The notes under the pieces: generated by a model
Seen by the model: only the letters and a program-made list of their open reading frames with translations
The model's database searches: none
What the model was told of the DNA's origin: nothing
Program-made: the position numbers and the translations under genes
In this document: one piece after another, positions 22,033 to 59,024 of the stretch
Layout: every line of letters starts with the position of its first letter
How positions within the stretch are numbered: the first letter of the stretch is position 1
Source of the DNA: Salinisphaera orenii subsp. orenii MK-B5
GTDB taxonomy: Bacteria; Pseudomonadota; Gammaproteobacteria; Nevskiales; Salinisphaeraceae
Assembly: GCF_003788635.1 (NCBI RefSeq)
Contig: NZ_AYKH01000042.1
Coordinates: 62,001 to 126,000, forward strand
Length of the DNA: 64,000 nucleotides
Direction: 5' to 3'

Positions 22033-22047
22033 TGAATACGGTATACA
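22033..22047. promoter_or_regulatory. Palindromic operator, site 1
   Basis: TGAATAC-G-GTATACA, one mismatch from the perfect palindrome at 59010-59024. It lies 72 bp upstream of the thiolase-like gene at 22120, and its flank ATACAGTC resembles the other four sites. Confidence 0.6.
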
Positions 22048-22119
22048 GTCGACTCGCACACGCCGAGCCGCGCGATCCGTTCGCGCGCTCGCGCCCACCG
22101 AGAGCAAGGCAGACATCGC

Positions 22120-23286
22120 ATGACACGAGAGGTAGTGATCGCCGGCATTTCCGAAGCCGGCCTCGACAAGGGCGTGTTCGCCGAGCCGGTCTCCGTACTC
22201 GACGTCCAGGCCCAATGCGCCACCCGCGCGGTCGCCGACGCCGGCCTGACCATGGCCGATGTGGACGGCGTACTGACCGCCGGCCTCTGGGGCATGCCCG
22301 GCGCGGGCACTTTGATGCCACTGTCGGTGGTCGAGCACCTGGGCATCAAGCCGCGGTTCATCGACGGCACCAACATCGGCGGCTCGGCCTTCGACGCCCA
22401 TGTGGCCCATGCCGCCATGGCGATCGAACGCGGCTACTGCGACGTGGCCGTCATCACTTATGCCAGCGACCAGCGCAGCGCCTCCGGGCGCAATCTGGCC
22501 GGCAAGCCGCCGCATCTGAACATGCAGTTCGACTCGCCCTTCGGCCTGCTCACCCCCATCGGCAGCTACGCGCTGGCCGCGCATCGCCACATGCACGAAT
22601 ACGGCACGACCTCCGAGCAGCTCGCCGAGATCGCGGTGGCCGCGCGGCGCTGGGCCCAGCTCAACCCGGCCGCCACGAAGCGCGACGAGCTGAGCGTCGA
22701 CGACGTGCTGGACAGCGCGATGATCAGCGACCCGCTGCACAAGCTCGACGCCTGTCTGGTCACCGACGGCGGCGGCGCCGTGGTCGTGACCACGCCCGAA
22801 AAACTCGGCACCGACGCCCGCAAGAAAGCGGTCTATGTGCGCGGCTACGGCGAATCGGTCTCGCACTGGACCATCAACAGCATGCCGGATCTGACCACCA
22901 CGCCCGCGGCCCACAGCGGCCCCGCGGCGATGCGGATGGCCGGGGTGAGCCACGACGATTTCGACGTGGTCCAGATCTACGATTCGTTCACCATCACCGT
23001 GCTGCTCACGCTCGAGGCACTGGGTTTCTGCAAGCCCGGCGAAGGCGGCGAGTTCGTCTCCGGCGGCCGCATCGCACCCGGCGGCGCCTTCCCCATGAAC
23101 ACCAGCGGCGGCGGCCTGTCGTGCTCGCATCCCGGCATGTACGGCATGTTCCTGCTGTTCGAAGCGGTCCGTCAGCTGCGCGGCGATGCCGGCGAACGCC
23201 AGCTGGACAAAGCCACCACCGCGCTGGTCAACGGCACCGGCGGCGGCCTGTCGAGCACCGCGACCTGCGTGCTGAGCAACCGCTAA
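22120..23286 (+). CDS. Thiolase-like protein without the nucleophilic cysteine (Ltp/aldolase type)
   Basis: A 388-residue thiolase-fold protein. Where thiolases carry the nucleophilic Cys, this has TNIGGSAFDAH (Gly87-Gly88-Ser89), so Claisen thiolysis is unlikely. Tyr287 in QIYDSFTI, Tyr341 in HPGMYGM and the C-terminal GGGLSCSHPG match the lipid-transfer-protein thiolase-like group. Some members (Ltp2 with the DUF35 protein ChsH2) are retro-aldolases cleaving 3-hydroxy-acyl-CoA side chains. A DUF35 gene follows after 11 bp, which supports that comparison. The actual substrate is unknown. Operator site 1 lies upstream. Confidence 0.88.
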   Translation: MTREVVIAGISEAGLDKGVFAEPVSVLDVQAQCATRAVADAGLTMADVDGVLTAGLWGMPGAGTLMPLSVVEHLGIKPRFIDGTNIGGSAFDAHVAHAAMAIERGYCDVAVITYASDQRSASGRNLAGKPPHLNMQFDSPFGLLTPIGSYALAAHRHMHEYGTTSEQLAEIAVAARRWAQLNPAATKRDELSVDDVLDSAMISDPLHKLDACLVTDGGGAVVVTTPEKLGTDARKKAVYVRGYGESVSHWTINSMPDLTTTPAAHSGPAAMRMAGVSHDDFDVVQIYDSFTITVLLTLEALGFCKPGEGGEFVSGGRIAPGGAFPMNTSGGGLSCSHPGMYGMFLLFEAVRQLRGDAGERQLDKATTALVNGTGGGLSSTATCVLSNR

Positions 23287-23297
23287 GGAGCATCGAG

Positions 23298-23717
23298 ATG
23301 AGTCAGGACGCATCCACCCCGAGCCGCCCGGTCCCGATCACCGATCCGGCGACCGCGCCGTTCTGGAAGGCCGCCAGCCAGGGCGAGCTATCGCTGCCGC
23401 GCTGCGAGGACTGCCGGCGCGTGCACTATTATCCACGCGCCGTCTGCCCGCACTGCAGCAGCGAATCGCTGTCCTGGGAGACCCTCAGCGGGCGCGGCAC
23501 CATCTATTCCTGGACCGTTTCGCGCCGCCCGGCGGGCGCCGGCTTCAAGCCGTACGTGCCCTACGTGGTCGCGCTGATCGACCTCGACGAGGGCGCGCGC
23601 ATGCTCTCGAACGTCCGCACCGACGATGTCGACAGCGTGGCCATCGGCCAGGCCGTGCGCGTGGATTTCGAGGACATGGCCGAGGACATCGCACTCCCCG
23701 TCTTCCGCCCGGCCTGA
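23298..23717 (+). CDS. Zn-ribbon and OB-fold protein (DUF35), partner of the thiolase-like enzyme
   Basis: A 139-residue protein with a four-Cys zinc ribbon (Cys36, Cys39, Cys50, Cys53 in LPRCEDCR...AVCPHC) and an OB fold starting GRGTIYSWTVSRRP. DUF35 proteins act as obligate partners of thiolase-like enzymes. TAAGGAG lies before ATG 23298, right after the stop of the thiolase-like gene, so the two form one operon. Confidence 0.93.
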   Translation: MSQDASTPSRPVPITDPATAPFWKAASQGELSLPRCEDCRRVHYYPRAVCPHCSSESLSWETLSGRGTIYSWTVSRRPAGAGFKPYVPYVVALIDLDEGARMLSNVRTDDVDSVAIGQAVRVDFEDMAEDIALPVFRPA

Positions 23718-23740
23718 GCGATCGACACGCGGCCGCCGCG

Positions 23741-23949
23741 TCGTGGCGTGCCACGACCCAGGCTTGCAACGCCGCCGGGCGCCCCTAGTCGTTTTTATGG
23801 GCGGCCCAACCCTTCGGGACAATCGCTGTTGTGCGGCAATCCAGCGTTGTAGCACGCTGGTGCAGAATGACTGCACGGCGCGCACTACGCCTCGTCTTGC
23901 CGCACAACAGCGATTGGCGCGGGCTCGCATGAAGTGCTAACAGGCCCTA
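23741..23949 (+). repeat. Dispersed intergenic repeat, copy B, with internal 20-bp inverted repeat
   Basis: Related to copies A and C through the TGGCGYGCCAC palindrome, the GGGCGGCCCAACCC block, GTGCGGCAATCCAGCGTTGT (23831-23850), AGAATGACTGCACGGCG and GGGCTCGCATGAAG. It ends at the TAG stop of the enoyl-CoA hydratase gene (GGCC-CTA, 23943-23949). Unlike the other copies, the ATAGTCAATTTCAGAAAG segment is replaced by an inverted copy of its own left part: 23820-23839 and 23897-23916 are perfectly complementary over 20 bp. Confidence 0.85.
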
Positions 23950-24738
23950 GTCTTCGCGCGCCGGCCACTCGAACGCCGGCGGGCGTTTGTCCAGAAAGGC
24001 GTCGACCGCGTCGCCGTGTTCGGGCGTGGCGAAGGCCACGCTCTGGCTGGTCAGCTCCATGTCGAGCATGGTCCTGAAGTCGTTGAGCTGCGAGACGTTG
24101 AGCGCGCGCTTGCTGAGCATGAACGCGGTCGGCGAGGCCGCCGCCAGGCTCGTGGCGATGGCCCGGGCCCGATCCGGCAGCGCCTCGGCCTCGACCGCCT
24201 CCAGCGCGATCCCCAGCGACACCGCCTCGTCGGCCGCGACGGTGCGCGCCGAGTAGATGATCTCCTTGGCGCGCTGCAGGCCGACGATGCGCGGCAGGGT
24301 GTAGAGCGCGCCGAAGTCGGGCACCAGCCCGATCTTCATGAACGCCATCGAGAACTTCGCCCGGGTGCTCGCGATCACCAGGTCGGCGGCCAGGGCCAGA
24401 CCGAAGCCGGCACCGAAGGCCGCACCGTCGACCGCGGCGATGACCGGCTTGTCGAGATGCACGAGCTGCTCCAGCCAGCGGTGATGAAAGCGCATTCGCG
24501 CCTGACGCGCGGCCGGATCGTCGCGGTTGGCCAGCATGGCCTTGATGTCGCCGCCGGCACAGAAGGCCCCGGCCGCGCCGGTGATCACCAGGGCGCGTAT
24601 GTTGTCGTCGTCGCGTACCGTGGCCACGGCCTCGGCGAGCTCGCCGGTCATCGCGCCGTTGATGGCGTTCTTCTGCTGCGGCCGGTCGAGGGTGATCGTC
24701 GCCACGCCGGCTGCGACGTCGAATCGAATCGTCTCCAT
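23947..24738 (-). CDS. Enoyl-CoA hydratase/isomerase family protein
   Basis: A 263-residue crotonase-fold enzyme with the oxyanion-hole motif AGAFCAGGDIKAM and AAVDGAAFGAGFGLALAADLVIA. FMKIGLVPDFGALYTLPRIVG is closer to PaaG-type isomerase/hydratases than to classical FadB, because Asp stands where Glu-Gly is usual. It converts an unsaturated acyl-CoA in the catabolic cluster. It follows the citrate-synthase-like gene by 55 bp, and its TAG stop coincides with the end of repeat copy B. Confidence 0.9.
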   Translation of the reverse strand: METIRFDVAAGVATITLDRPQQKNAINGAMTGELAEAVATVRDDDNIRALVITGAAGAFCAGGDIKAMLANRDDPAARQARMRFHHRWLEQLVHLDKPVIAAVDGAAFGAGFGLALAADLVIASTRAKFSMAFMKIGLVPDFGALYTLPRIVGLQRAKEIIYSARTVAADEAVSLGIALEAVEAEALPDRARAIATSLAAASPTAFMLSKRALNVSQLNDFRTMLDMELTSQSVAFATPEHGDAVDAFLDKRPPAFEWPARED

Positions 24739-24793
24739 CGCTGTCTCCTTTTCGGATGCAGCGGGCGCGGCATTCCGCGCCCGCCGCGGGGGC

Positions 24794-25579
24794 TCACTCG
24801 GGGCGGATGTGGGCGGTCGCCTCGTCCTCGATCCGCTGCCAGATCTCCACGCCCATGGGATTTTCCGACTCCTCGAGGATGTGGCCGACCAGCCCGATGG
24901 CGCGCGCCATCACGCCGAAGCCGCGCACGATATGGCCGGGGAAACCGAATTCGCAGCAGATCGCCCCGATCGCGCCGGTGGCGTTGATCGGCAGCTGCTT
25001 GCCCGAGGCCGCTTCGGCCTCGACCTGGATCCTGCCCATGAGCTCGACATAGCGTCCGGCCATGCCGTTGTCCTCGGCAATGGCGAACAGCCGCGGGGTG
25101 CGCGGGTCCACCGGCTTGTGCAGCGGGTGCCCCAGACCGGGAATGATCTGCTTGCGCGCGCGGTAATCGGCCACCGTCTGCTTCGCGATCGCGTCCAGGT
25201 CGGCATCCGCCGGCGCATCCGTGGGCAGCACCTCGTAGAGCATCTTCGCGGCACCTTCCATGCTGCCCACGAAGACCGTGCCCAGCCCGCACAGGCCGGC
25301 GGCGACCGCGGCCTGCAGCGACTCCGGCGCGCCGGCATAGGTCAACCGCGCGGCCAGTGCGGAGGGGGTGATCCCATGCTCGACGAGCGTGATGACGATC
25401 GCGTTGAAGACACGCGACTCGGCCTCGGTCGGCGTCTTTCCGGTGAGCTGCAGGTAGGCCAGATCGCCCAGGTTGAAATGCCCGAGGATCTCGTCGGGCA
25501 GGCTCTTGCCGCGCACCTCGATGCGGTCGCGGGTGCTCCAGGCGATGTCGGAACGAATGGGTCTGGGTTCACGGCTCAT
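24794..25579 (-). CDS. Short citrate-synthase-fold lyase, citryl-CoA lyase-like
   Basis: A 261-residue protein with the citrate synthase catalytic region only. It has GLGHPLHKPVDPRTPRLFAIA (with the active His), AVAAGLCGLGTVFVGSMEGAAKMLYE, and GAICCEFGFPGHIVRGFGVMARAIGLVGHILEE. The length matches stand-alone citryl-CoA lyases rather than the roughly 430-residue citrate synthase. In this cluster a retro-Claisen cleavage of a citryl-CoA-like or citramalyl-type CoA ester is plausible; the substrate is inferred. Repeat copy C separates it from the upstream thioesterase gene. Confidence 0.82.
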   Translation of the reverse strand: MSREPRPIRSDIAWSTRDRIEVRGKSLPDEILGHFNLGDLAYLQLTGKTPTEAESRVFNAIVITLVEHGITPSALAARLTYAGAPESLQAAVAAGLCGLGTVFVGSMEGAAKMLYEVLPTDAPADADLDAIAKQTVADYRARKQIIPGLGHPLHKPVDPRTPRLFAIAEDNGMAGRYVELMGRIQVEAEAASGKQLPINATGAIGAICCEFGFPGHIVRGFGVMARAIGLVGHILEESENPMGVEIWQRIEDEATAHIRPE

Positions 25580-25654
25580 GGGTTGTCCTCGATGTGAGCA
25601 AATGAAGGTTCCGGGGTTGGTCGAAACGTGTTGCGAACGCGGCGCCGGGCCCCG

Positions 25655-25908
25655 CGCATCGCGTGCCGCGAGACGCGAATCGTCGATCGTGGCGCGCCAC
25701 GCTCAGGGCTGCACCGCCCTGGGCCGTTCACGGTCAATATCCATGGGCGGCCCCGCCGTCCGGGCCCTGCGCCGTTGTGCGGCGATCCAGCGTTGTCGCA
25801 CGCTCGTGCCGTGTGACTGCGCGACGCGTACGACGGATCGTCTTCCGCCCACAGTCAATTTTCAGAAAGACCCTGGGGCGAGCTTGCATGACGTGTCGAC
25901 GGGCCCTA
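25655..25908 (+). repeat. Dispersed intergenic repeat, copy C
   Basis: Same element as copies A and B: GATCGTGGCGCGCCACG (25685-25701), GGGCGGCCCCGCC, GTGCGGCGATCCAGCGTTGT (25777-25796), a CAGTCAATTTTCAGAAAG segment (about 25851-25869) and GAGCTTGCATGACG. It ends GGCC-CTA at the TAG stop of the thioesterase gene (25906-25908). It fills the gap between two genes of the same leftward cluster, so it probably disturbs or processes that transcript. The outer boundary near 25655 is approximate. Confidence 0.82.
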
Positions 25909-26340
25909 GTCGGCGCGGTGACGCGGCTGATCGCGCAGGGCGAAAGAGCCGCGACCGGTGGCCAGCTGGCGCCGTTCGGCGTCGAACACGTCGGCGACGC
26001 CGACCACGATCTGGCGGCCCTTCTTGACGATGGACGCGCTCGAATAGATGCGGCCCTTGCCGGCCGGGCGCAGGAAGCTGACGTTGAGATCGATGGTCAG
26101 CGGGCCGATGTCGTGCTGATAGGCCGAACGCACGGCCGTGCCGAGCACCGTGTCGATGAGCGTGCAGTAGATGCCGCCGTGCACCATGCCGTAGGCCTGC
26201 ACCAGGTTGTCGTTGATCTCGAGTGCGATCTCGCAGTCGCCGCTGCCGTCGGTGCTCACGCGTTCTATGGCCACGCCGAGATGCATGCGGAAGGGGTTGC
26301 GCTCGGTCCAGGCGATCTCGTCTTCCAGGGTCCAGGCCAT
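25906..26340 (-). CDS. PaaI-type hotdog thioesterase
   Basis: A 144-residue hotdog-fold protein with the PaaI signature AYGMVHGGIYCTLIDTVLGTAV and DLNVSFLRPAGKGRIYSSASIVKKGRQ. It hydrolyses small acyl-CoA thioesters, probably recovering CoA from dead-end intermediates. It starts 6 bp after the CoA-transferase B stop, so it is in the same transcript. Confidence 0.92.
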   Translation of the reverse strand: MAWTLEDEIAWTERNPFRMHLGVAIERVSTDGSGDCEIALEINDNLVQAYGMVHGGIYCTLIDTVLGTAVRSAYQHDIGPLTIDLNVSFLRPAGKGRIYSSASIVKKGRQIVVGVADVFDAERRQLATGRGSFALRDQPRHRAD

Positions 26341-26346
26341 GCGGGC

Positions 26347-27009
26347 TTATCCTTGTGCTCGTCGGGCGGTGTCGGGGGCCATCAGCGGCGCGTCGGTGAC
26401 GTTCTGAACGGTGTCGAAGTCGTTGCCGGCCAGCAGTTCGATCACCTGCAGCCCGGCGTCGGTGACCGCGATCACGGCCAGATCCGTATAGATGCGGCTG
26501 ACCACGCCCGCGCCGGTCAGCGGATAGCTGCAGCGCTCGACGATCTTGGGCGTGCCGTCCTTGAGCGTATGCCGGGTGATCGCGAACAGCTGCTTCGCGC
26601 CCACCACCAGATCCATGGCGCCGCCGACCGCCGGCGGATAGGTCTCGCTGCCGGTCGACCAGTTGGCCAGATCGCCGTTGGCCGCGACCTGATAGGCGCC
26701 AAGCACCGAGATGTCGATATGGCCGCCGCGCATCATCCCGAAGGAATCGGCGTGGTGGAAGAACGAACCGCCCGGGCGCATGGTGATGTGCTGCTTGCTG
26801 GCGTTGATCAGCTGCGGGTCCTCCTCGCCGGGCGCGGGGGCGGCGCCGAAGCCGAGCACGCCGTTCTCGCTGTGGTAGATGACCTCGCGATCCGCCGGCA
26901 CGTGATTGGCCACCTCCGTGGGCATGCCGATGCCGAGATTGACGTAGGCGCCGTCGGGGATGTCGGCCGCGCAGCGGGCGGCGACCTGTTCGGGGGTGAG
27001 ACGGTTCAT
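26347..27009 (-). CDS. CoA-transferase family I, subunit B
   Basis: A 220-residue beta subunit with the catalytic glutamate Glu48 in the SENG motif (VIYHSENGVLGFG), GIGMPTEVANHVP and GGHIDISVLGAYQVAANGDLANW. With subunit A it moves CoA from succinyl- or acetyl-CoA to a keto or carboxylic acid (3-oxoadipate or 3-oxoacid type). ATG 27009 overlaps the subunit A stop (ATGA), indicating stoichiometric co-translation. The acceptor acid cannot be read from the sequence. Confidence 0.94.
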   Translation of the reverse strand: MNRLTPEQVAARCAADIPDGAYVNLGIGMPTEVANHVPADREVIYHSENGVLGFGAAPAPGEEDPQLINASKQHITMRPGGSFFHHADSFGMMRGGHIDISVLGAYQVAANGDLANWSTGSETYPPAVGGAMDLVVGAKQLFAITRHTLKDGTPKIVERCSYPLTGAGVVSRIYTDLAVIAVTDAGLQVIELLAGNDFDTVQNVTDAPLMAPDTARRAQG

Positions 27010-27680
27010 GCGACGGCCTGTTCGGTTTCGATGACGTGGTCGACGAAGATGCCCGGCGTGACCACCTGCTCCGGGTCGATGTCGCCCAGCGCGACGACCG
27101 CCGAGACTTCGGCGATCACCGTGCGCGCGGCCGTGGCCATGATCGGATTGAAGTTGCGGGCGGTCTTGTAATAGACGAGATTGCCCCAGCGGTCGGCCCG
27201 TTCGGCCTTGAGCAGGGCGACATCGGCGGACAGCGGGGTCTCGAAGACGTGCCCGACGCCGTCGATGATCTCGGTGCGCTTGCCTTCGGCCAGGGCGGTG
27301 CCGTAGCCGGTGGGCGTGTAGAAGCCGCCGAGGCCGGCACCCGCGGCCCGGATGCGCTCGGCCAGCGTGCCCTGGGGCACCAGCTCCAGCTCGATGGCGT
27401 TCTCTTCGTAGCGGCGCTCGAACCAGACCGAGCCCGGCGAGCGCGGATAGGAGCAGATGACCTTCGCGACGCGATTCTCGGCGAGCAGCCGGGCGATGCC
27501 GGTCTCGCCCACGCCGGCGTTGTTGGCCACGATCGTCAGATCGCGCGCGCCGTGATCCAGCAGCGCATCCATCAGATTGAAGGCGACTCCGGAGCTGCCG
27601 AAGCCGCCACACATGAGGGTGTCGCCGTCGGCGACACATGCGATCGCCTCGGCGATCGAATCCCTGATTCGATTGATCAT
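27006..27680 (-). CDS. CoA-transferase family I, subunit A
   Basis: A 224-residue alpha subunit with the CoA-binding glycine-rich segment MCGGFGSSGVAFNLMDAL and NNAGVGETGIARLL. ATG 27680 (MINRIRDSIAEA) is preferred to the upstream in-frame start because the family N-terminus begins there. The sequence is closest in style to PcaI/3-oxoacid CoA-transferase A. It lies downstream of two TRAP binding-protein genes, so the acid they capture may be its substrate. Confidence 0.93.
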   Translation of the reverse strand: MINRIRDSIAEAIACVADGDTLMCGGFGSSGVAFNLMDALLDHGARDLTIVANNAGVGETGIARLLAENRVAKVICSYPRSPGSVWFERRYEENAIELELVPQGTLAERIRAAGAGLGGFYTPTGYGTALAEGKRTEIIDGVGHVFETPLSADVALLKAERADRWGNLVYYKTARNFNPIMATAARTVIAEVSAVVALGDIDPEQVVTPGIFVDHVIETEQAVA

Positions 27681-27746
27681 TCCGGGTTGTCCTGCAGAAG
27701 AGGGAAAAGTTGCCGGCGGATGCGGACGCACCCGCCGGCATCGGCA

Positions 27747-28883
27747 TCAGAGCGCGTCGAGCGCGGCCTGACGCTTGTCCTCCCAGACGGCCTGGAAGTC
27801 CTCGCCGGTCTTGTCGCCGGCCTCTTCCTTGGTCTCCTGCCAGGCCGCCTGCAGGGCTTCCAGACGTGCGAGGCGCTTGTCGTTCCACTCCTGCATGTCG
27901 TCGGTCCAGATACCTTTTTCCTTCAGGTACTTGATTGCGCCCGGATGGAACGGCGCATCGATCGGCGGGGTACCCGATTCACTCAGCTTCCAGCGCGGCA
28001 TCACCGAGGTGGCATCCTTGTACATGCCGAAGGTGTCGTCCATGGCCTTGGTGAAGTCGTAGACCGCCTGATCGGACATGTCGGCGCGCACGGTCAGCAC
28101 CGGGTAGCGATAGGCCATCAGCGGCACCGGATTATCCTCGCTGATGCCCGCGCCCACCGTTTCTTTATACGGCTTGAAGAACGGCGCAACCTCGGTCACA
28201 CGCTTCCAGCCCTTCTCGTCGGAAGCCGGCAGTGGCACCCAGTAGATCCCGCGCGGGGACTCGGCCAGTTCGTACATCTGGCTGGGCGTGGTCGTGGTGC
28301 AGGTCGCATCGGCCTGGCCCTGGGCGAGCGAGCTCATCGCCGCGCCGTAGGTCGGGAACATGCGCGCATCGACGTCGTCGCGGGTCAGCCCGGCGAAGGC
28401 CAACAGCGCATCGCACTTGACGTTGACCGACGGGTTGCCGGCCACATAGGCCACGCGCTTGCCTTCCACATCGGCGAGCTCGCGGATATCGGCGTCCTCG
28501 GCCGTGGGCATGCCGAATGAGGACGGCCGGCCGGCGACCACGCGCAGATCCTGCGGGCCCCAGCGCGGGTCGGCGAAGTCGTAGAGTCCTTCGGTGGCGA
28601 AGAAGGTCTCGGTGGCGAGGAAGCTGTAATCGGCCCGTTCCTGCAGCAGCGGCTGCAGCCGACCGATCGCCGACCCGGACGGCTGAATGCGTATGCGGGT
28701 GCCGTATTCCTTGCCGAAGGCGTCGGCCATCGCCGAAGCCTCGGCATAGCCGGCCGAGCCGACATCATACGACGACCAGGTCATGGTATCCGGCAGGTCC
28801 TGCGCCAGCGCGCCGGACGCGCCCAGCGCGCAGCCGGCCGCCAGGACCGCGCTCGCCGCAGCGGTTCGTGTCTTATTAAGCAT
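27747..28883 (-). CDS. TAXI-family TRAP solute-binding protein, paralogue 1
   Basis: A 378-residue periplasmic protein with a signal peptide (AAASAVLAAGCALGASGALAQ). Its TAXI core includes TMTWSSYDVGSAGYAEASA, a second block at residues 67-75 (IQPSGSAIG) and YVAGNPSVNVKCDALLAFAGL. It is very similar throughout to the next upstream gene, evidence of tandem duplication. TAXI proteins deliver carboxylates to a fused 4TM-12TM permease, but no permease gene is nearby. The C-terminus is rich in charged helical residues. Confidence 0.93.
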   Translation of the reverse strand: MLNKTRTAAASAVLAAGCALGASGALAQDLPDTMTWSSYDVGSAGYAEASAMADAFGKEYGTRIRIQPSGSAIGRLQPLLQERADYSFLATETFFATEGLYDFADPRWGPQDLRVVAGRPSSFGMPTAEDADIRELADVEGKRVAYVAGNPSVNVKCDALLAFAGLTRDDVDARMFPTYGAAMSSLAQGQADATCTTTTPSQMYELAESPRGIYWVPLPASDEKGWKRVTEVAPFFKPYKETVGAGISEDNPVPLMAYRYPVLTVRADMSDQAVYDFTKAMDDTFGMYKDATSVMPRWKLSESGTPPIDAPFHPGAIKYLKEKGIWTDDMQEWNDKRLARLEALQAAWQETKEEAGDKTGEDFQAVWEDKRQAALDAL

Positions 28884-28930
28884 GGTGCTCTCCTCCTCGT
28901 GGTGCGCTTGATGCGCTCTTGATTATCCGA

Positions 28931-30076
28931 TCACTCGTTATCGTCGTCGCCGGACTCGAGCGCGGCGATCGTGTTCCGCCGGGCCTCGGCCCAGGCTTCG
29001 GCGAAGGCTTGGTCGTCGGCGTCTTCATTGGCCGCGAGCGCGTCCTTCCAGGCCGCACGCAGGGCCTCGAGCCGCTTCAGGCGTCGATCGTTCCAGGCCT
29101 GATCCGCCTCGGTCCAGATACCCTGCTCTTCAAGATACTTGATCGCACCGGGATGGAACGGCGCATCGACCGGCGGGTGGCCGGCGCGCTCCAGATCCCA
29201 GCGCGGCATCGACGCGGTGGCGTCGTTGTAGAGATCGAAGGTCTCGTCCAGCGCCTTGATGTAGTTGTAGACAGCCTCCTCGCTCTGGTCGGCGCGCACG
29301 ACGATCATCGGATAGCGATAAGCCATCATCGGAACCGGCTCGTCCTCCGAGATGCCCGCGCCGACGGTCTCCTCGAACGGCGCGAAGAACGGTGCCAGCG
29401 CCTGCAGACGCTGCCAGCCCTGTTCGTTGTCGGGCGGCAGCGGCACCCAGTGAATGCCGCGCGGGGACTCGGCCAGCTCGTACATCTGGCTCGGCGTGGT
29501 CAGGGTGCAGGTCGCATCGGCCTGGCCCTGGGCGAGCGAACTCATCGCCGCACCGTAGGTCGGGAACATGCGCAGGTCGACGTCGTCGCGATCCAGCCCG
29601 GCGAAGGCCAGCACGGCGTCGCACTTGACGTTGATCGAGGGATTGCCGGCGACATAGGCCACGCGTTTGCCGGCCACGTCGGCGACCGTATCGATGTCCG
29701 CGTCCGCGGCCGTGGGCATGCCGAACGACGACGGCCGGCCGGCGACCACGCGCAGATCCTGCGGGCCCCAGCGGCGGCTGGCGAAATCGAACACGCCCTC
29801 GGTGGCGAAGAAGGTCTCGGTCGCGAGATAGCCGTAGTCGACGCGGCCCTGCAGCAAGGGCTGCAGCCGGCCGACCGCCGACCCGGAGGGCTGGATGCGC
29901 ACGCGGGTGCCGTATTCCCGGCCGAAGGCATCCGCGATGGCCGACGCCTCGGCGTAGCCGGCCGAGCCGACGTCATAGGATGACCAGGTCATCGTGTCCG
30001 GCAGCGTCTGCGCACCGGCGGTGCCGAACGCCGCACTCAGCATGGCCGCAACGAGCGCCTGTGTTTTCTTTTTCAT
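28931..30076 (-). CDS. TAXI-family TRAP solute-binding protein, paralogue 2
   Basis: A 381-residue protein with a signal peptide (MKKKTQALVAAMLSAAFGTAGAQ) and nearly the same TAXI core as its neighbour: TMTWSSYDVGSAGYAEASA, IQPSGSAVGRLQPLLQ, GAGISEDEPVPMMAYRYP and HPGAIKYLEEQGIWTE. AAGGAGGGG precedes ATG 30076; the longer in-frame start lacks a signal peptide. The 47-bp gap to paralogue 1 fits one transcript. The two copies may bind different acids. Confidence 0.93.
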   Translation of the reverse strand: MKKKTQALVAAMLSAAFGTAGAQTLPDTMTWSSYDVGSAGYAEASAIADAFGREYGTRVRIQPSGSAVGRLQPLLQGRVDYGYLATETFFATEGVFDFASRRWGPQDLRVVAGRPSSFGMPTAADADIDTVADVAGKRVAYVAGNPSINVKCDAVLAFAGLDRDDVDLRMFPTYGAAMSSLAQGQADATCTLTTPSQMYELAESPRGIHWVPLPPDNEQGWQRLQALAPFFAPFEETVGAGISEDEPVPMMAYRYPMIVVRADQSEEAVYNYIKALDETFDLYNDATASMPRWDLERAGHPPVDAPFHPGAIKYLEEQGIWTEADQAWNDRRLKRLEALRAAWKDALAANEDADDQAFAEAWAEARRNTIAALESGDDDNE

Positions 30077-30221
30077 CTCCGCCCCTCCTTGTTTCACAAC
30101 CCTATCAGTATTCCGTATTCCGTCGACGGCCTTGCCATGGACGCAAGTCGGCGGCTCCCGGCAATGCCGGGCCACAGACCCGTCGTAGCGGCCGGTCGCT
30201 CACCGGCCGCCGCGGCGCGTA

Positions 30222-30902
30222 TCAGCGGATCTTGCCTTCCTTGCTCGCCACGTAGTCGTAGAGCGCGCGCCCGGCCGTGGCGATGTGCTCACGCATGGCC
30301 GAGCCGGCGGCATCGGCGTCGCGTTCGCGCAGTGCGCTCAGGATGCCGCGGTGCTCACGCGCCGCCTGCACCAGCCGATTGTCGATGGCCATCGGCGTGA
30401 GCGGCGGCAGGCCCTGCCAGAGGCCGTAGATCATGCGTGACAGTCGCGGCTGATCGGCACTGTCGTAGAGTTCGCGATGAAACTCCTGGTTGAGTTCCAC
30501 ATAGGTCTGCTTGTCGCCGGCCTCGGCCGCGGCCTCGATGTCGCCCTGCAGCCGCTCGAGCTCATCGATCTCCTCATCGGTGAGCTGCGCGGTGGCCTTG
30601 ACCACGGCCTGAGCCTCGAGCATCTCGCGGAGCGAGTAGATCTCCTCGACATCCTCGAGCCCGAAGTGGCTCACGCGACACACGCCGCGCTCGTCTGCAT
30701 CGACCAGGCCGTCGAAGACGAGCCGTTTGAGGGCGTCGCGCACGGGAATCCGGCTGGTGCCGAAACGGCTGGCCAGATCCTCGTGCACCAGCCGCTCTCC
30801 ACCCTCGATCTCGCCCTTGAGGATGGCCTCGCGCATGCGCATGTACACCTCGTCCTCGATCGAGCGACGACGTACCGGGCCGAAACTGGATTTGCTGCTC
30901 AT
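30222..30902 (-). CDS. GntR-family regulator, FadR/FCD subgroup
   Basis: A 226-residue protein with an N-terminal winged HTH (about 14-75, SIEDEVYMRMREAILKGEIEGGERL then DLASRFGTSRIPVRDALKRLVFDGLV) and an all-helical FCD effector domain (about 85-215) containing the metal- and ligand-binding His region FHRELYD and EHRGILSALRERD. It is first in the leftward cluster and probably controls the TAXI/CoA-transferase genes. It is also one candidate reader of the TGTATAC palindromes in this window, although none lies near its own start. Confidence 0.92.
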   Translation of the reverse strand: MSSKSSFGPVRRRSIEDEVYMRMREAILKGEIEGGERLVHEDLASRFGTSRIPVRDALKRLVFDGLVDADERGVCRVSHFGLEDVEEIYSLREMLEAQAVVKATAQLTDEEIDELERLQGDIEAAAEAGDKQTYVELNQEFHRELYDSADQPRLSRMIYGLWQGLPPLTPMAIDNRLVQAAREHRGILSALRERDADAAGSAMREHIATAGRALYDYVASKEGKIR

Positions 30903-30976: not shown

Positions 30977-31681
30977 TCAGAACAGGTCCCACAGGCTGCG
31001 CGACCAGGTCAGCTGGTCGGGCGTGGCCTCGTGGATGATGCGTCCGCCCTTCATCAGATAGACCCGATCGGAGACCGCGAGCGCCTGGCCGACGTTCTGC
31101 TCGACCAGCAGCACGCTCAGGCCCTCCTCCTCGCGCAGCCGCGTCACCAGCGCCATGATGTCGTCGACCAGATTCGGCGCCAGGCCGGTGGAAGGTTCGT
31201 CCAGCAGCAGCAGCTTCGGCCCCGCCAGCAGTGCCCGGCCGATGCTCACCATCTGCTGTTGCCCGCCGGACAGCTCCCCCGCCCGATCGTCCTTGCGCTC
31301 GTCCAGAATCGGCAGATAGCCGAGCGTTCGCGCCAGGCGCCGGTCGTATTCGGCACGCGCGGACTCGCCGCTGGCCCAGAAGCCCATGCGCAGGTTCTCG
31401 GCGACGGTCAGGCTCGGGAAGACGCCGCGCTCCTGCGGCACCAGCACCATGCCGCGGCGCATGAGCGAGCGGGTCGAGGCTCCGGCGACGGCGGCGTCGT
31501 TGAAACGCACCTCGCCCCGGCAGTCGCCCAGCACGCCGAACACGCCCTTCATCAGGGTGGACTTGCCGGCGCCGTTATGGCCGAACAGCGAGACGATCTC
31601 GCCGCGTTCGACGCGCAGCTCGGCGCCGGAGACCACCGGCACCGAGGGATAGCCGGCGTGGAAGTCATGGACGCTCAGCAT
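30977..31681 (-). CDS. livF: Branched-chain amino acid-type ABC importer ATPase LivF
   Basis: A 234-residue ATPase with Walker A GHNGAGKST (34-42), signature LSGGQQQM, Walker B LLLLDEPSTGL and the LivF hallmark VLLVEQNVGQALAVSDRVYLMKGG. ATG 31681 overlaps the livG end by 7 bp. It is the last gene of the livKHMGF operon. Because acyl-CoA catabolism genes lie just upstream, the imported compound may be a carboxylic acid or hydrophobic amide rather than an amino acid. Confidence 0.95.
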   Translation of the reverse strand: MLSVHDFHAGYPSVPVVSGAELRVERGEIVSLFGHNGAGKSTLMKGVFGVLGDCRGEVRFNDAAVAGASTRSLMRRGMVLVPQERGVFPSLTVAENLRMGFWASGESARAEYDRRLARTLGYLPILDERKDDRAGELSGGQQQMVSIGRALLAGPKLLLLDEPSTGLAPNLVDDIMALVTRLREEEGLSVLLVEQNVGQALAVSDRVYLMKGGRIIHEATPDQLTWSRSLWDLF

Positions 31682-32421
31682 GACGCGGCCTCCGCGGGAC
31701 GCCCCGCCGTGCCGAAATACAGATCCGTGAGCCGCTCGTTGGCGAATATGCGCTCGGGCGTATCGAAGGCCATGACCTCGCCCTTGTTGAGAAAGGCGAT
31801 GCGATCGGAGACCTCGCGCACGATATCCAGATTGTGTTCGATCAGCAGCACCGTATGGCCTTCGTCCTTGAGGGACTGCAGGAGCGTGTGAAAAGTGGTG
31901 CGCGACGGGCCGTCCAGCCCCGAAGCCGGCTCGTCGAGGAGGAACAGATCGATGTCGAGCGCCATGATCCGAGCGAGATTGAGGAACTTGCGCTCGGCGT
32001 AGGACAGATCCATGGCACGCGTATCGCGCTTGTCGGCCAGACCGACGCGCTCGAGCACGGCGTCGGTGTGCCGACACGCGGCCGCCCGGGTCCAAAGCCT
32101 GAAGCTCGATTCCTGGGCGACCAGCACATTCTCGAACACGGTCATCTCGTTGAACAGGCGCAGGTCCTGGAACGAGCGCGCGATGCCGAGCCGGGTCACG
32201 CGCTGCGGGGACAGCCCGACCAGGTCGCTGCCCTTGTAGTGCACCGAGCCCGCGTCGGGCCGCAGGAAGCCGGTGATCAGGTTGAACAGGGTCGTCTTGC
32301 CCGCGCCGTTGGGCCCCACCAGCGAGGTGATCAGCCCCGGCTCGAGCGCCAGGGTCACGTCGGGGATGATGACGTTGCCGCCGAAGGCCTTGCGCAGGCC
32401 GTGGATATCGAGTGCCGCCAT
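31675..32421 (-). CDS. livG: Branched-chain amino acid-type ABC importer ATPase LivG
   Basis: A 248-residue ATPase with Walker A GPNGAGKTT (36-44), Walker B LFLLDEPASGLDG and the H-loop VLLIEHNLDIV. The ABC signature reads LSYAERKFLNLAR; LivG proteins normally have a Gly-Gln/Asp pair (LSYG-Q type), so the signature is altered and the ATPase may be weaker or LivF-dependent. It is separated from livM by 2 bp. Confidence 0.95.
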   Translation of the reverse strand: MAALDIHGLRKAFGGNVIIPDVTLALEPGLITSLVGPNGAGKTTLFNLITGFLRPDAGSVHYKGSDLVGLSPQRVTRLGIARSFQDLRLFNEMTVFENVLVAQESSFRLWTRAAACRHTDAVLERVGLADKRDTRAMDLSYAERKFLNLARIMALDIDLFLLDEPASGLDGPSRTTFHTLLQSLKDEGHTVLLIEHNLDIVREVSDRIAFLNKGEVMAFDTPERIFANERLTDLYFGTAGRPAEAASC

Positions 32422-32423
32422 GA

Positions 32424-34213: not shown

Positions 34214-34253
34214 GACGCCCCTCCCGTCCCGTTTCGAAACGCGACGCGCCGGC

Positions 34254-35523: not shown

Positions 35524-35538
35524 TGTATACAGTACCCA
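35524..35538. promoter_or_regulatory. Palindromic operator, site 2
   Basis: TGTATAC-A-GTACCCA. The left half-site is perfect; the right has two mismatches. It lies between the stop of the alcohol dehydrogenase gene (35562) and the start of the Liv importer operon (35417), so it is positioned to control the importer. Confidence 0.5.
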
Positions 35539-35561
35539 GTCAACGATACGAAAGTCGCAGG

Positions 35562-38254: not shown

Positions 38255-38353
38255 ATCCTCACTCCGATATCTCGCACGGGCCGGGCTTCGTTGTGATTGG
38301 TTCGCCCGTGGCCCCAATGAAGACGGCCGGCGCAGCGGCCGGCCGTCGATCGG

Positions 38354-39268: not shown

Positions 39269-39311
39269 GTTCTCTCCTCGATTGGAAAAGCGGTTGCGGT
39301 GAGCCGCGCCG

Positions 39312-40466: not shown

Positions 40467-40476
40467 CTCGTTCTCC

Positions 40477-41666: not shown

Positions 41667-41681
41667 CGTATACCGTGTACA
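41667..41681. promoter_or_regulatory. Palindromic operator, site 3
   Basis: CGTATAC-C-GTGTACA with flank ACAGAAA. Two positions differ from the perfect palindrome of site 5. It sits in the 88-bp gap between the AidB-like gene stop and the start of the paired acyl-CoA dehydrogenases, where a promoter for 41604 and downstream genes would lie. Confidence 0.5.
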
Positions 41682-41692
41682 GAAAGCCGACT

Positions 41693-43534: not shown

Positions 43535-43549
43535 TGTATACGGTACACT
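43535..43549. promoter_or_regulatory. Palindromic operator, site 4
   Basis: TGTATAC-G-GTACACT, with TTTA directly before it exactly as at site 5. It lies in the 230-bp divergent region between the AidB-like gene (leftward, 106 bp away) and the hydratase-led operon (rightward, 111 bp away), so it could control both. Confidence 0.55.
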
Positions 43550-43659
43550 GTGTTCATATTCAGGGCAATAGCGTGCATCATGAGTCACTGGCGCACGATC
43601 GGATTGCCGACCACCGAGGCCCGGCACAGGCTTCACGCAGCACAGGACCGCCCCGACCC

Positions 43660-45655: not shown

Positions 45656-45664
45656 GAGCCCGCC

Positions 45665-47023: not shown

Positions 47024-47048
47024 ACCAGGAACACAAGGGAGCCATACC

Positions 47049-48254: not shown

Positions 48255-48277
48255 CAGGCCACAAGGAGCCCACCGGC

Positions 48278-49087
48278 ATGGCCACATCCCTGCGCTGTCC
48301 GCTGTTCGTACCCGCCACTCGGGCCGGCCTGATCCCCAAGGCGCAGGCCAGCGGCGCCGATGCGGTGATCGTCGATCTCGAGGACGCCGTCGCCATGGAC
48401 CGCAAGGACGAGGCCCGCGACGCGCTCGCGGCCTTCCTCGCGGACGACCCCGAAGCCCGGGTGATCGTGCGCATCAACGCCGCGGACAGCGGCGAGCTGG
48501 ATGCCGACCTCGCCCTCTGCGAAGGCCACGCGGGCATCGCCGGCATCATGTCCCCCAAGGCCGAGTCGCGCGGCGCACTGGAACGCGTGGCCCGCCTGGG
48601 CAAGCCGGTCTGGCCGCTGCTGGAGACGCCGGCGGGCGTGCTCGCCCTGGAGTCCCTGACCCGTGTGGCCGGCGTCGAACAGTTCGCCTTCGGCGCGCTC
48701 GACTTCGCCTTCGAAGCGAATCTGACGCCCGACAGCGACGGCGGCCGCGCGGTGCTCGACTATGCCCGCCACCAGCTGCTCATGCACTCGCACGCGGCCG
48801 GCCTGATGCCGCCGCTGGAAAGCGTCTACCCCGACTTCAAGAACCCCGAACGCCTGCACGCGATCGCGCTGCGCGCACGCGACATGGGCTTCGGCGGCAT
48901 GCTCTGCATCCACCCGGCCCAGATCGAGACCGTGCGCACCGCCTTCTCGCCCAGCGAGGACGAGCTCGGCTGGGCCCAGCGCGTCATGGACGCCAGCCGC
49001 CGGAACAGCGGTGCCTTCCAGGTGGACGGGCAGATGGTCGACGCCCCCGTGCTGGCGCGGGCGCAGCGCATTCTGGCGCTGAACTAG
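48278..49087 (+). CDS. ccl: HpcH/HpaI-type CitE-like lyase, (S)-citramalyl-CoA lyase-like
   Basis: A 269-residue CitE-like TIM-barrel lyase: LRCPLFVPATRAGLIPKAQASGADAVIVDLEDAV, metal ligands in PLLETPAGVLAL and FGALDFAFEAN, and GFGGMLCIHPAQIETVR. It splits a beta-hydroxyacyl-CoA such as citramalyl-CoA into acetyl-CoA and pyruvate. ATG 48278 has AAGGAG 9 nt upstream; an alternative ATG 48251 overlaps the transferase stop. Last gene of the operon. Confidence 0.87.
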   Translation: MATSLRCPLFVPATRAGLIPKAQASGADAVIVDLEDAVAMDRKDEARDALAAFLADDPEARVIVRINAADSGELDADLALCEGHAGIAGIMSPKAESRGALERVARLGKPVWPLLETPAGVLALESLTRVAGVEQFAFGALDFAFEANLTPDSDGGRAVLDYARHQLLMHSHAAGLMPPLESVYPDFKNPERLHAIALRARDMGFGGMLCIHPAQIETVRTAFSPSEDELGWAQRVMDASRRNSGAFQVDGQMVDAPVLARAQRILALN

Positions 49088-55766: not shown

Positions 55767-57080
55767 CTAGCCGGCGAATGACATCTGGGGCAGCCAGAGC
55801 GCGATCTGGGGGAACAGATATAGCAGCACGAGCACAAATATCTCCGCCGCAAAGAACCAGATCAGGCCACGGAAAATCGTGTTCAGCGGCACCAGATCGC
55901 CGACCGCGCCCTTGACCACGAACGCATTCAGCCCGAGTGGCGGCGTAATGAGGCCGATCTCGATGAATTTCACGACCATGATCCCGACCCAAAGCATGTC
56001 GAAACCGGCGCTTTCGAACAGAGGCAAGAAGATCGGCAACGTCAGCAACAACAGTCCCAGTGGATCGAGGAACATGCCGAGTACGATATAAATCAGTCCC
56101 GCCACGAACATGAGCATCAGCGGACTCGTACCGCTGCCACCGGCCAGATCGGCCACCATGAAAGGCAGACCGGTAAGCGCGAGAAAGCGCGTGAAAAGCG
56201 TGGCGCCGACGGCGATGAAAAAGATCATGCCGGTGCTGCGGGCGCTTTCCACGAGGCTGTCCTTGAGCACCTTGAAGGAGAGCCGGCGCATGCCCGCAGC
56301 AATCGCCAGCGAGGCGATGCAGCCGATTGCCGCGGCCTCGGTCGCGGTTGCGATCCCCGCATAGATCACGCCCACCACTGCCAGAATCAGCAACGGCAGC
56401 GGCCAGACTTCGCCGAGCACGGCCAGCCGATCCGACCAGCTGATCGATTCGTCGCTCTTGGGAGCGAGGCGCTTGTCGAAACGACAGCGCACGATGATCA
56501 TCGCGCCATAGACGCAGGCGGTCAGAAGTCCCGGCAGCAGGCCAGCGAGCAAGAGCTGTCCCACCGGTTGCTGGGCAAACAGGCCATAGAGCACGAGCAT
56601 GATGCTGGGCGGGATCATGGAGCCAAGCGTTCCCGACGCCGCCACGACTGCGCTCGATAACGCCGGCTGATAACCGGCCTTGAGCATCTCCGGAATCGCA
56701 AGCCGGCCCATCGCCGCAGCGGTCGCGAGCGACGAGCCCGATGCCGCTGCAAAACCGGCGGAGGCGAAGTTGGTGGCCACCGCGAGCCCGCCGGGCAACC
56801 CCGACAACCAGAGCCGCGCGGCGCGATAGATGCTGGCCGCCAGCCCGGCATGAAAACTGATCGCCCCCATGAGGATGAACAGCGGTATCGCCGACAGTTC
56901 CCAACTCGTGACAAAGGCGAACGACATGCTTTCGGCCGAGCCGAGCATCGCGCCGAAACCCCGCAGATAGTACAGCCCGCATAGCGCCACGGCCCCGAGT
57001 GCCACGCCGATCGGTACGCGTAGAGCAAGCAGGGCCAGTAACGCGGCCACACCGATTATGCCTACTGTTTCCGGCGCCAT
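55767..57080 (-). CDS. dctM: TRAP transporter large permease (DctM)
   Basis: A 437-residue 12-helix membrane protein with the DctM signature segments RVPIGVALGAVALCGL, FASAGFAAASGSSLATAAAMGRLAIPEMLKAGYQPALSSAVVAASGTLGSMIPPS and IVLGMFLDPLGLLLLTLPIFLPLF. ATG 57080 has GGGAG 8 nt upstream; a GTG three codons earlier is less likely. Confidence 0.96.
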   Translation of the reverse strand: MAPETVGIIGVAALLALLALRVPIGVALGAVALCGLYYLRGFGAMLGSAESMSFAFVTSWELSAIPLFILMGAISFHAGLAASIYRAARLWLSGLPGGLAVATNFASAGFAAASGSSLATAAAMGRLAIPEMLKAGYQPALSSAVVAASGTLGSMIPPSIMLVLYGLFAQQPVGQLLLAGLLPGLLTACVYGAMIIVRCRFDKRLAPKSDESISWSDRLAVLGEVWPLPLLILAVVGVIYAGIATATEAAAIGCIASLAIAAGMRRLSFKVLKDSLVESARSTGMIFFIAVGATLFTRFLALTGLPFMVADLAGGSGTSPLMLMFVAGLIYIVLGMFLDPLGLLLLTLPIFLPLFESAGFDMLWVGIMVVKFIEIGLITPPLGLNAFVVKGAVGDLVPLNTIFRGLIWFFAAEIFVLVLLYLFPQIALWLPQMSFAG

Positions 57081-57194
57081 TACCCACACTCCCGGGCGGT
57101 CGTTCGTAAAGCGTTAACGCAGGGCTTGTCCGGCCGCTGGCGAACGCAAGAGTCCCGTATCGCAGCCATGCGCCACATCAATGCCGTTCTATAG

Positions 57195-57701
57195 CTACGC
57201 GGATTCGGCATCCCGATCCCGCGCCCGACCGCCCAGCAAACGGGCGATCTGAAGGCCGACAACCAGCGCCATACCCAGCACGCCGAAAAAGAACACCCAA
57301 CGCATCGGCCAGGTCGGCAGATCGAACAGATACAGATCCTGATACTCGCCTCTGCGATATGCGCCCATGGCGCCCTGCAGACAGGCCCACCCCAGTACGG
57401 CGAGATAAATCAAGGTCAGAACGGCCGCCATGCCATCCATCAGACGCCGCCAGAGCGGGGTCAGCCGTTGCGTAAAGACTTCCACAATCACGTGTTCCCC
57501 GGCCGCGGCCACTGCAGCCAGCGGAAGGACCGTTACCGCGACCATGTAGTAGTACTTCACGATTTCGATCGTGCCGTAGAGCGGCGCATTGAACAGATAC
57601 TTGCTCGCCACGTCGGCGCCGATATGGATGGCCATGGCAGCCAATGCCAAGCTGGCCACGAACACGAGCAGACGGCGCAGCCCATCGATCAGATGCGTCA
57701 T
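57195..57701 (-). CDS. dctQ: TRAP transporter small permease (DctQ)
   Basis: A 168-residue protein with four membrane helices and the DctQ-type motif YLFNAPLYGTIEIVKYYYMVAVTVLPLAA. ATG 57701 has GGAG upstream. The 114-bp gap to dctM holds no recognisable gene. Confidence 0.94.
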   Translation of the reverse strand: MTHLIDGLRRLLVFVASLALAAMAIHIGADVASKYLFNAPLYGTIEIVKYYYMVAVTVLPLAAVAAAGEHVIVEVFTQRLTPLWRRLMDGMAAVLTLIYLAVLGWACLQGAMGAYRRGEYQDLYLFDLPTWPMRWVFFFGVLGMALVVGLQIARLLGGRARDRDAESA

Positions 57702-57744
57702 CGACAGTACTCCGGGATCCATGCGATCAGGAGGCGCTGACCGT

Positions 57745-58860
57745 CTAGAACTCGACCTTTGAATAGATCCGCTCGTTGATTGCCTCGACGAGCTTTTCAT
57801 TGTCGCCGTCGGCTTTCTCGACAATCCGCTCCCACTTGTCGAGCCGCGTCAGGTAGTCGTCGACGAGCTGTTCCGGATTGTTCACACCCCGCTTTTCGGC
57901 CAGCGCGGCCACGCGCTCACGTTCCTTGGCCAGGTACTTGTCGTAGCTGGTTTTCAGCGGCTCGCCCGGCTCGACGAACGTCACCCCACTGTTTCGGGCG
58001 GTTTCAAATGCTTCGGCCGCGTCATTGGCGTAGCCGCGCGAGACATTGACGATCGCCTGGGCCGCATTGCGCTTGAACAGCTCACGCTGCTCCGGAGTCA
58101 ATGCCTGCCAGCGCTGCGTATTCATGTTGATGAAGCTTGCACCCATGAAAGTGCCCATCGGCATGTCGACGATATAATCGACGACATCGGCCAGCCCGTA
58201 GCTCTTGAGATAAGCGGCGCCCGCAAAAGCGCAGTCGGCCTGCCCACGACTGAGCGCTTCATAGGTTTCCGAGGTGGCAATACTCACCGGCGTCGCGCCG
58301 AAATGTGCCGCCAGCCCGTTCCAGGCCGTGGCCGACTTGATCCGCTTGCCGCGTATCGAGGCCAGATCGGAGACCGCGCTGTTGCACATCAAGTAGTACG
58401 GCGAGGTCGAATAGAAGGCGATCGGCTTGGCGCCGGCCTGCTTCCACTCCTCCAGACATTGAGGACAATGAAGCAGCACTGTTTCCGTCATGGCCGCCGC
58501 TGCACTGACCTCGTTGTCAGCGAACAGGGCGAGCTCGTTGAGCGTCGCTTCGGTAGGCAGAGTGCTGGGTATATAGACATCCACGACCAGCCCCATATCC
58601 ACCGTCCCGTTGCGGATGCCGGTGAGCGTGTTGCTGCTACCCACCATCGTTCCATCCGACAGCAGGCGAAATTGCAGCTCGCCGTCGCTTTGCTCCTCGA
58701 GTGCCTCGAAGTAAGGCTCGAGACCGTCTACATGGAAGGTATGAGACCGGGGCACATAGCTGCCATAGACGAAATTCTCCGCTGCGTGAACGGAAACCGC
58801 AGCGATACAGCCGACAAGAATCAGCCCCGCGTATCCGATCTTCGTGAACAAACGCCTCAT
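57745..58860 (-). CDS. dctP: TRAP transporter solute-binding protein (DctP)
   Basis: A 371-residue precursor with a signal peptide (IGYAGLILVGCIAAVSVHA) and a DctP domain: YGSYVPRSHTFHVDGLEPYFEAL, LSDGTMVGSSNTLTGIRNGTVDMGLVV and the ligand-proximal segment SIRGKRIKSATAWNG. It carries an unusual CPQC motif (LLHCPQCLEEW) and one more Cys (YLMCNS), which could form disulfides. AGGAGGAG precedes ATG 58860. First gene of a six-gene operon (dctPQM, dehydrogenase, ligase, racemase); the ligand is probably a monocarboxylate that is then activated to CoA. Confidence 0.94.
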   Translation of the reverse strand: MRRLFTKIGYAGLILVGCIAAVSVHAAENFVYGSYVPRSHTFHVDGLEPYFEALEEQSDGELQFRLLSDGTMVGSSNTLTGIRNGTVDMGLVVDVYIPSTLPTEATLNELALFADNEVSAAAAMTETVLLHCPQCLEEWKQAGAKPIAFYSTSPYYLMCNSAVSDLASIRGKRIKSATAWNGLAAHFGATPVSIATSETYEALSRGQADCAFAGAAYLKSYGLADVVDYIVDMPMGTFMGASFINMNTQRWQALTPEQRELFKRNAAQAIVNVSRGYANDAAEAFETARNSGVTFVEPGEPLKTSYDKYLAKERERVAALAEKRGVNNPEQLVDDYLTRLDKWERIVEKADGDNEKLVEAINERIYSKVEF

Positions 58861-59009
58861 CGCTCTCCTCCTGATGCATCGATGGCCGCTCGCCTTGATG
58901 CTGGTTAGGGCTGGCCCGTTACACCGGGCTGCCATGGTTTTAATTGTTGTCGCCGACCGGCCTGCGCGATCGTTTTAAGTGTCCGTGCCGCACGTAGTAG
59001 CCGCCTTTA

Positions 59010-59024
59010 TGTATACCGTATACA
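59010..59024. promoter_or_regulatory. Palindromic operator, site 5 (perfect)
   Basis: TGTATAC-C-GTATACA is a perfect odd-length palindrome (7+1+7) with TTTA before it. It is the best of five related sites and lies 150 bp from dctP and 246 bp from the thiolase gene, in the shared divergent region. Confidence 0.65.

Follow-up and report, generated by a model that had tools for sequence, protein, structure and literature searches.

Arrays of 7-bp palindromic units as putative operators of a dispersed carboxylate/acyl-CoA catabolic regulon in Salinisphaera, with an FCD-type GntR protein as the probable reader

Introduction

Five near copies of a 15-bp palindrome, TGTATACNGTATACA, stand in front of catabolic and uptake genes in a 64,000-nucleotide stretch of Salinisphaera DNA, here called the window (C42:62001-126000 of genome G000; 3.67 Mb, 44 contigs). 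What is this element, how far does it extend in the genome, and which protein reads it? A sequence-only reading of the window had proposed a single 7+1+7 palindrome that ties five transcription units into one branched-acid regulon, with a TetR protein (62313) and an FCD-type GntR protein (30222) as candidate regulators. We conclude, with a probability of roughly 0.7, that the sites serve as operators for a single carboxylate/acyl-CoA catabolic regulon scattered over the genome, that they are built as arrays of 7-bp units, and that the FCD-type GntR protein would read them as a repressor.

In the following, G-numbers denote comparison genomes (G004, G009, G010, G012 and others), C-numbers contigs and L-numbers fetched stretches. 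G012 is a near-twin of G000, G004 is a diverged congener whose proteins are ∼62–94% identical to those of G000, and G010 is 87% complete. Gene calls came from a simple script that uses codon bias and had 13 genes of the window as its training set, so that miscalls are possible in other genomes. The reversed pattern served as the background of the motif scans, together with 100 shuffles in the window.

Results

At up to three mismatches, TGTATACNGTATACA has five matches in the window (22033, 35524, 41667, 43535 and 59010), exactly those located by the sequence-only reading, compared to 0.13 expected and a maximum of 2 among the 100 shuffles. The site at 59010 is the sole perfect palindrome; that at 22033 has one mismatch and the other three have two each. 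The gene calls confirmed that all five are intergenic, and the PQQ-dehydrogenase/MoxR region (the mxa locus) was again without a match at this threshold. The shared flanks described earlier, TATG before and ACAG after, held only in part. The four bases 5′ of the 15-mer are GGCA (22033), TCTA (35524), TATG (41667) and TTTA (43535 and 59010), and the 15-mer ends in ACA with G as the next base in three of the five sites (22033, 41667 and 59010).

The enrichment is genome-wide. We observed 29 matches in G000 at up to three mismatches, compared to 7 for the reversed pattern, and 21 of these 29 are intergenic, as are all 7 found at up to two mismatches; the non-coding share of the 277 kb examined, a stretch chosen around the matches, is 12.8%. 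The motif is thus above background and lies mostly outside genes. G004 has 61 matches against 18 reversed at the same three mismatches; their classification covers the fetched stretches only, and the comparison of counterparts in G004 takes in the sites other than 59010, C34:158937 and C13:3185.

The element is better described as a row of 7-bp units, each of them GTATAC (or, more loosely, GTNNAC) with one spacer base. An array usually has two to four units, and the 15-bp palindrome is two adjacent ones. The palindromic sites described earlier are therefore real, but a 7-bp-periodic array fits them better than one palindrome does. Most sites have a third unit and some a fourth, for example GTATTCcGTATACgGTAGACgGTAGGC in G010 and GTCAACcGTGTTCcGTATACgGATAAC at C2:114471. 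In a register test of 24 sites (12 from G000, 10 from G004 and 2 from G010), GTNNAC matches beyond the two-unit core peaked at offsets 1 (z = 5.2) and 8 (z = 3.3); in G000 alone the top three of 30 offsets were 1, 8 and 15 (z = 2.7, 1.7 and 1.5), that is, steps of 7 bp. None of 20,000 flank shuffles reached the mean of the third unit. A three-unit pattern gave 50 matches in G000 against 19 reversed. At up to three mismatches it found six places in the window, all intergenic, and thereby added a sixth operator at 30108-30127, which had been overlooked earlier together with the periodicity itself and an IclR-family gene (19191-19991). The window arrays, to which no strand is assigned, are the following.

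22033-22053: operator array GAATACgGTATACaGTCGAC, intergenic, before the thiolase-like/ChsH2-OB pair (22120-23717)
30108-30127: sixth operator array GTATTCcGTATTCcGTCGAC, three-unit pattern with 2 mismatches, 32 bp before the NMT1_3-type receptor gene 28931-30076 (TAXI/CoA-transferase operon)
35524-35544: operator array GTATACaGTACCCaGTCAAC, before the Liv-type importer 34254-30977; a site also precedes the G004 orthologue
41667-41687: operator array GTATACcGTGTACaGAAAGC, before the acyl-CoA dehydrogenase operon 41604-35562; a site also precedes the G004 orthologue
43535-43555: operator array GTATACgGTACACtGTGTTC, in the divergon of AidB-like 41693 and hydratase-ACAD-PrpD-CaiB-CitE 43660-49087 (ACAD, acyl-CoA dehydrogenase); a site is also present in the G004 divergon
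59010-59030: operator array GTATACcGTATACaGAGTTC with the perfect 15-mer, in the divergon of TRAP 58860-55767 and thiolase 59270

Promoter-like matches overlap the array in two of the three intergenic regions scanned, 59010 being the exception: the 35524 array spans the −35 and spacer of such a match, and the 43535 array overlaps a −10-like hexamer.

The arrays changed less than their surroundings. Between G000 and G012, 2 of 160 positions differ in eight arrays compared to 63 of 964 in the flanks (p = 0.003), two loci supplying most of the flank changes. At 22033, one of 20 array positions changed and 15 of 120 in the flanks; the 20-mer at 30108-30127 is identical, and the array at C34:172453 was kept while its flanks changed. 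The 59010 site has no counterpart among the G012 matches at up to two mismatches, the G012 contig stopping before that region. In G004, sites precede the orthologues of the AidB/hydratase divergon, ACAD 40477, the Liv receptor, the CoA ligase, pyruvate carboxylase, the TAXI/ACAD divergon and a second TAXI gene, so that the sites are conserved in a relative upstream of orthologous genes; a further site lies 66 bp before gntR itself. One operator in G004 stands before a joined CoA ligase-thiolase-DUF35 operon, and in G000 the CoA ligase (C40) and the thiolase pair (C42) each have their own array. Two other G004 sites may mark extra targets, namely an array between 3-hydroxyisobutyrate-dehydrogenase-like and amidohydrolase genes (L186, 6299-6313) and a one-mismatch site before an MFS transporter gene (L097, 10535-10549).

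The sites co-occur with the gene for one regulator.

30222-30902, − strand: FCD-type GntR regulator, the proposed array reader from its Pfam GntR and FCD domains, its co-occurrence with the regulon and its predicted fold

Among the 14 congeners searched for regulators, this gene was found in G000, G012, G004 and G010 and in none of the ten others (E ≤ 1e-30), and all four genomes that bear it have intergenic sites near catabolic genes of this kind. At up to two mismatches the GntR-bearing genomes have 20 matches against 5 reversed, and the others 17 against 14. Intergenic matches at this threshold are 19 of 20 with the gene and 5 of 17 without it (13 of 14 when G012 is excluded; p = 0.0004). 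In G000 and G004, gntR belongs to the cluster itself; in G010 it adjoins related genes and has two arrays within 10 kb. The array check in that genome covered contig C116 only. The one G010 match at up to two mismatches and one four-unit array share the contig of the GntR gene and stand before TRAP-type genes. G009, which has no GntR gene, encodes a pyruvate carboxylase of 87% identity that has no upstream site at up to four mismatches.

The protein scores 50.0 bits for Pfam GntR (cut-off 27) and 104.8 bits for FCD (cut-off 24.3), which is the domain composition of the FadR subfamily. Its predicted model, of moderate confidence (pLDDT 78, from three sequences), matches FCD-GntR structures including that of Atu1419. 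Seven helix segments follow the winged helix in this model, although segments 174-182 and 184-192 are perhaps one helix; the VanR group has six, not seven. Candidate metal-site residues of the FCD domain, assigned by pattern only, are present (N138, H142, H184 and H206) and kept in G004 and G010. Salinisphaera halophila YIM 95161 encodes the identical protein (100%), and Salinisphaera sp. UBA1666 one of 56–57% identity. With the G000 protein as query at E ≤ 1e-45 among 369 genomes of the class, only G000 was found; a wider contig scan gave two close relatives and three proteins at 31–35% identity, the genomes of these three lying outside the array scan. A paper search found no described GntR regulator of Salinisphaera.

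The putative target genes of the window are listed below. Domain searches of the neighbours agree with the gene names given earlier. The NMT1_3-type receptors are of the TAXI kind.

22120-23717, + strand: thiolase-like protein and ChsH2/DUF35-type OB protein
23947-30076, − strand: two NMT1_3-type receptors, CoA-transferase pair, thioesterase, citrate-synthase-like protein and enoyl-CoA hydratase
30977-35417, − strand: Liv-type ABC importer and its receptor; orthologues in the same order in G004
35562-41604, − strand: two acyl-CoA dehydrogenases, short-chain dehydrogenase/reductase (SDR), AMP-forming CoA ligase and zinc alcohol dehydrogenase
41693-43429, − strand: AidB-like acyl-CoA dehydrogenase
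43660-49087, + strand: FAS1-type dehydratase, acyl-CoA dehydrogenase, MmgE/PrpD, CaiB-type CoA-transferase and CitE/RipC-like lyase
55767-58860, − strand: TRAP transporter DctP, DctQ and DctM
59270-62269, + strand: thiolase, SDR and nitronate-monooxygenase-like protein

These enzymes fit carboxylate/dicarboxylate CoA-thioester catabolism in general and do not single out a branched acid, the substrate proposed earlier. The operon 43660-49087 resembles a pathway that takes C5 dicarboxylates to pyruvate and acetyl-CoA, and pyruvate carboxylase would be a fitting regulon member in that case; for two proteins of this operon no NCBIfam equivalog cut-off was reached.

In total we count ∼14 putative operators, which lie on six contigs of G000 (C2, C13, C23, C34, C40 and C42), six of them inside the window. 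They precede importers, a DcaP-type porin, CoA ligases and transferases, acyl-CoA dehydrogenases, thiolases and pyruvate carboxylase. The earlier proposal of one regulon is thus upheld by the genome-wide enrichment, the sites before congener orthologues and the lower number of changes in arrays than in flanks, but five units of a single window was too narrow a view of it. The operators outside the window are as follows.

C42:41766: before pyruvate carboxylase
C34:158937: an SDR gene on one side, an AMP-forming CoA ligase gene on the other
C34:172453 (172453-172474): between an acyl-CoA dehydrogenase gene and an IclR gene
C34:175996: between an NMT1_3-type (TAXI) receptor gene and an acyl-CoA dehydrogenase gene
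C13:3185: before a DcaP-type porin; the opposite neighbour is a LuxR-type response regulator
C40:125231: before an ADP-forming-type CoA ligase
C23:37824: upstream of a further TAXI receptor accompanied by a DctM gene
C2:114471: found by the array pattern only, before DctP, a CaiB-type CoA-transferase and a zinc alcohol dehydrogenase

This count leaves out five intergenic G000 matches (of 21).

C40:22299: upstream of no called gene
C1:192188: prophage terminase/protease genes
C40:37527: NADH dehydrogenase chain 3/aconitase
C2:81551: TonB-dependent receptor
C12:22008: VanA-type oxygenase/enoyl-CoA hydratase

The last of these (L012, 1501-1515) reads TGTATGCAGAAAACA, has a second GTATAC 10 bases upstream and stands between the two genes named. 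A VanR-like regulator could bind here, or the site could belong to the array regulon as a marginal member.

At the level of the order, the classification at up to two mismatches took one match from each of 16 genomes and four from G035; 8 of the 16 are intergenic and none of the four from G035. Two genomes from another family of the order (G024 and G030) have an intergenic palindrome, TGTACGCTGTATACA, in common (1501-1515 of both L054 and L055). It looks like an unrelated TetR operator, because the L054 copy is flanked by genes for a TetR protein and a cytochrome P450.

Discussion

Of the four regulators tested, the FCD-GntR protein at 30222-30902 most likely reads the arrays. The others in or near the regulon are listed here.

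19191-19991, + strand: IclR-family regulator, rival reader; paralogue (42% identity) of the IclR-family protein P0002 (C34:172921)
62313-62957, + strand: TetR-family regulator, rejected as reader

IclR proteins, too, can recognise 15-bp palindromes centred on a single base, and the IclR protein at 19191 is encoded 2 kb from the 22033 operator and found only in G000, G012 and G004 (88% identical in G004), where it co-occurs with GntR. We nevertheless consider it an unlikely reader. It was not found in G010, which has arrays, and no clear array precedes its own gene. G035 and G043 encode IclR proteins of 46% identity with a near-identical recognition helix, yet the four G035 matches at up to two mismatches are all inside genes, and the 15–16 kb around either gene have no site at up to three. 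The choice of GntR over this protein rests mainly on G010, on G035 and G043, and on the GTATAC core known for an FCD protein (PMC7797058). P0002 was initially favoured for the array C34:172453-172474 between its gene and that of the acyl-CoA dehydrogenase, conserved as it is in G012. It was dropped, and is now very improbable, since an orthologue (61–100% identity) occurs in 13 of 14 congeners, most of them without the regulon, and ten P0002 neighbourhoods of 9–16 kb lack an intergenic site at up to three mismatches (nine of these genomes lack GntR and one, G010, has it).

The two regulators named by the sequence-only reading fared differently. Co-occurrence favours GntR, while the TetR protein, despite adjoining the 59010 divergon and belonging to a family whose operators are often palindromes, was not found at E ≤ 1e-15 in G012, G004 or G010, where the regulon is present; this rules it out for practical purposes. 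A regulator encoded elsewhere would also account for the arrays, as the genome encodes further GntR, TetR and IclR proteins (10 IclR-type domains). We give this a slightly smaller chance than the IclR protein at 19191, in view of the position of FCD-GntR within the cluster (G000 and G004) or beside related genes (G010), and of the site upstream of gntR in G004.

Several observations weigh against a GntR-read array regulon. G000 and G012 are not independent, being near-twins. In the genomes without GntR, 13 of 37 classified matches are intergenic, which sets a fair baseline nearer 35% and makes the intergenic share alone a weak argument; the 21 of 29 in G000 are still above it (Fisher p = 0.003). 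The short even-centred pattern ACNGTATACNGT, with 22 matches against 28 reversed, shows no enrichment, and this ruled it out as the signal. Part of the third-unit signal could come from −35 boxes (GTTGAC/GTCAAC), although z remained 3.9 (third unit) and 2.8 (fourth) in the 20 sites left after those with such a third unit were dropped. No counterpart of the 30108 array was seen before the G004 orthologue, nor one of the C34:172453 array at the G004 IclR gene, and no clear array precedes gntR in G000. G010, with a GntR protein of 57% identity, is the one GntR-bearing genome that has no excess at up to two mismatches (one match against 3 reversed); it has 23 against 15 at up to three, and no site alongside its P0002/ACAD locus; its regulon must therefore be small. 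As that genome is 87% complete, the IclR gene could have been missed there, and co-occurrence was tested for four regulators only.

For GntR as the reader, we infer binding, stoichiometry, repression and effector as follows. The protein would occupy the array as a single dimer or as several side by side and, so bound, would block the promoter; the promoter-like matches that overlap arrays suit such a repressor. A carboxylate or CoA-ester of the pathway may bind the FCD domain, upon which GntR would leave the array. A step of 7 bp would place neighbouring dimers about two thirds of a turn apart, so that some units may stay unfilled. More tentatively, the operators may be modular, GntR adding dimers along the palindromic units. 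How many units an array has (2 to 4), and how good they are, would then set the strength of repression for each of the ∼14 scattered transcription units, and new genes would join the regulon by gaining one array.

The closest precedents are other FCD-type GntR regulators. NanR of Escherichia coli binds a (GGTATA)3 operator on which three dimers assemble side by side (PMC8012715). It is an FCD-type GntR repressor of a catabolic regulon with a short tandem-array operator (PMC8012715), as is proposed for our protein. The 7-bp arrays share with it tandem repeats at a defined spacing, but differ in unit sequence and step: the NanR repeats are TGGTATAW direct repeats (PMC4494728), and the units described here are palindromic. 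Cooperativity of NanR needs a 32-residue N-terminal extension (PMC8012715), whereas 16 residues precede the GntR domain here (it starts at residue 17). NanR also acts on sialic acid genes, and our protein scores 74.2 bits against the NanR family model, whose cut-off is 260. Atu1419 of Agrobacterium fabrum (VanR group) binds ATGTATACAT, which has a GTATAC core (PMC7797058). It too is an FCD-GntR regulator of a carboxylate degradation gene set, and its fold resembles the predicted one (6za3, rank 4 in the structure search), but it uses single 10-bp palindromes ∼100–190 bp apart and a tetramer (PMC7797058), unlike units packed at 7 bp. The FadR subfamily consensus, NyGTM-N0-1-KACNy (PMC4494728), has similar GT...AC halves, but stands for one palindrome per operator and is no 7-bp array. 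AtuR/RdmA, a TetR protein of acyclic terpene and DSF degradation, has 13-bp inverted repeats before acyl-CoA catabolic genes (PMC9973270). Its site, AGCAAGCGCTTGG, as given there, is unrelated in sequence to the arrays, and an AtuR-type site was ruled out as the identity of the window palindromes on this ground.

The operator and its regulon thus appear to be real and larger than first noted; the reader is probably the FCD-GntR protein, and the array architecture is the unusual part. For the halophile genus Salinisphaera this yields a testable operator, a most likely reader and ∼14 targets, and a single switch would govern uptake (porin, TRAP, TAXI and Liv), activation and beta-oxidation-like steps together with pyruvate carboxylase. 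An array of palindromic 7-bp units would extend the tandem operators known beyond NanR, and the effector of the GntR regulator could reveal what many orphan TAXI and TRAP receptors bind as substrates.

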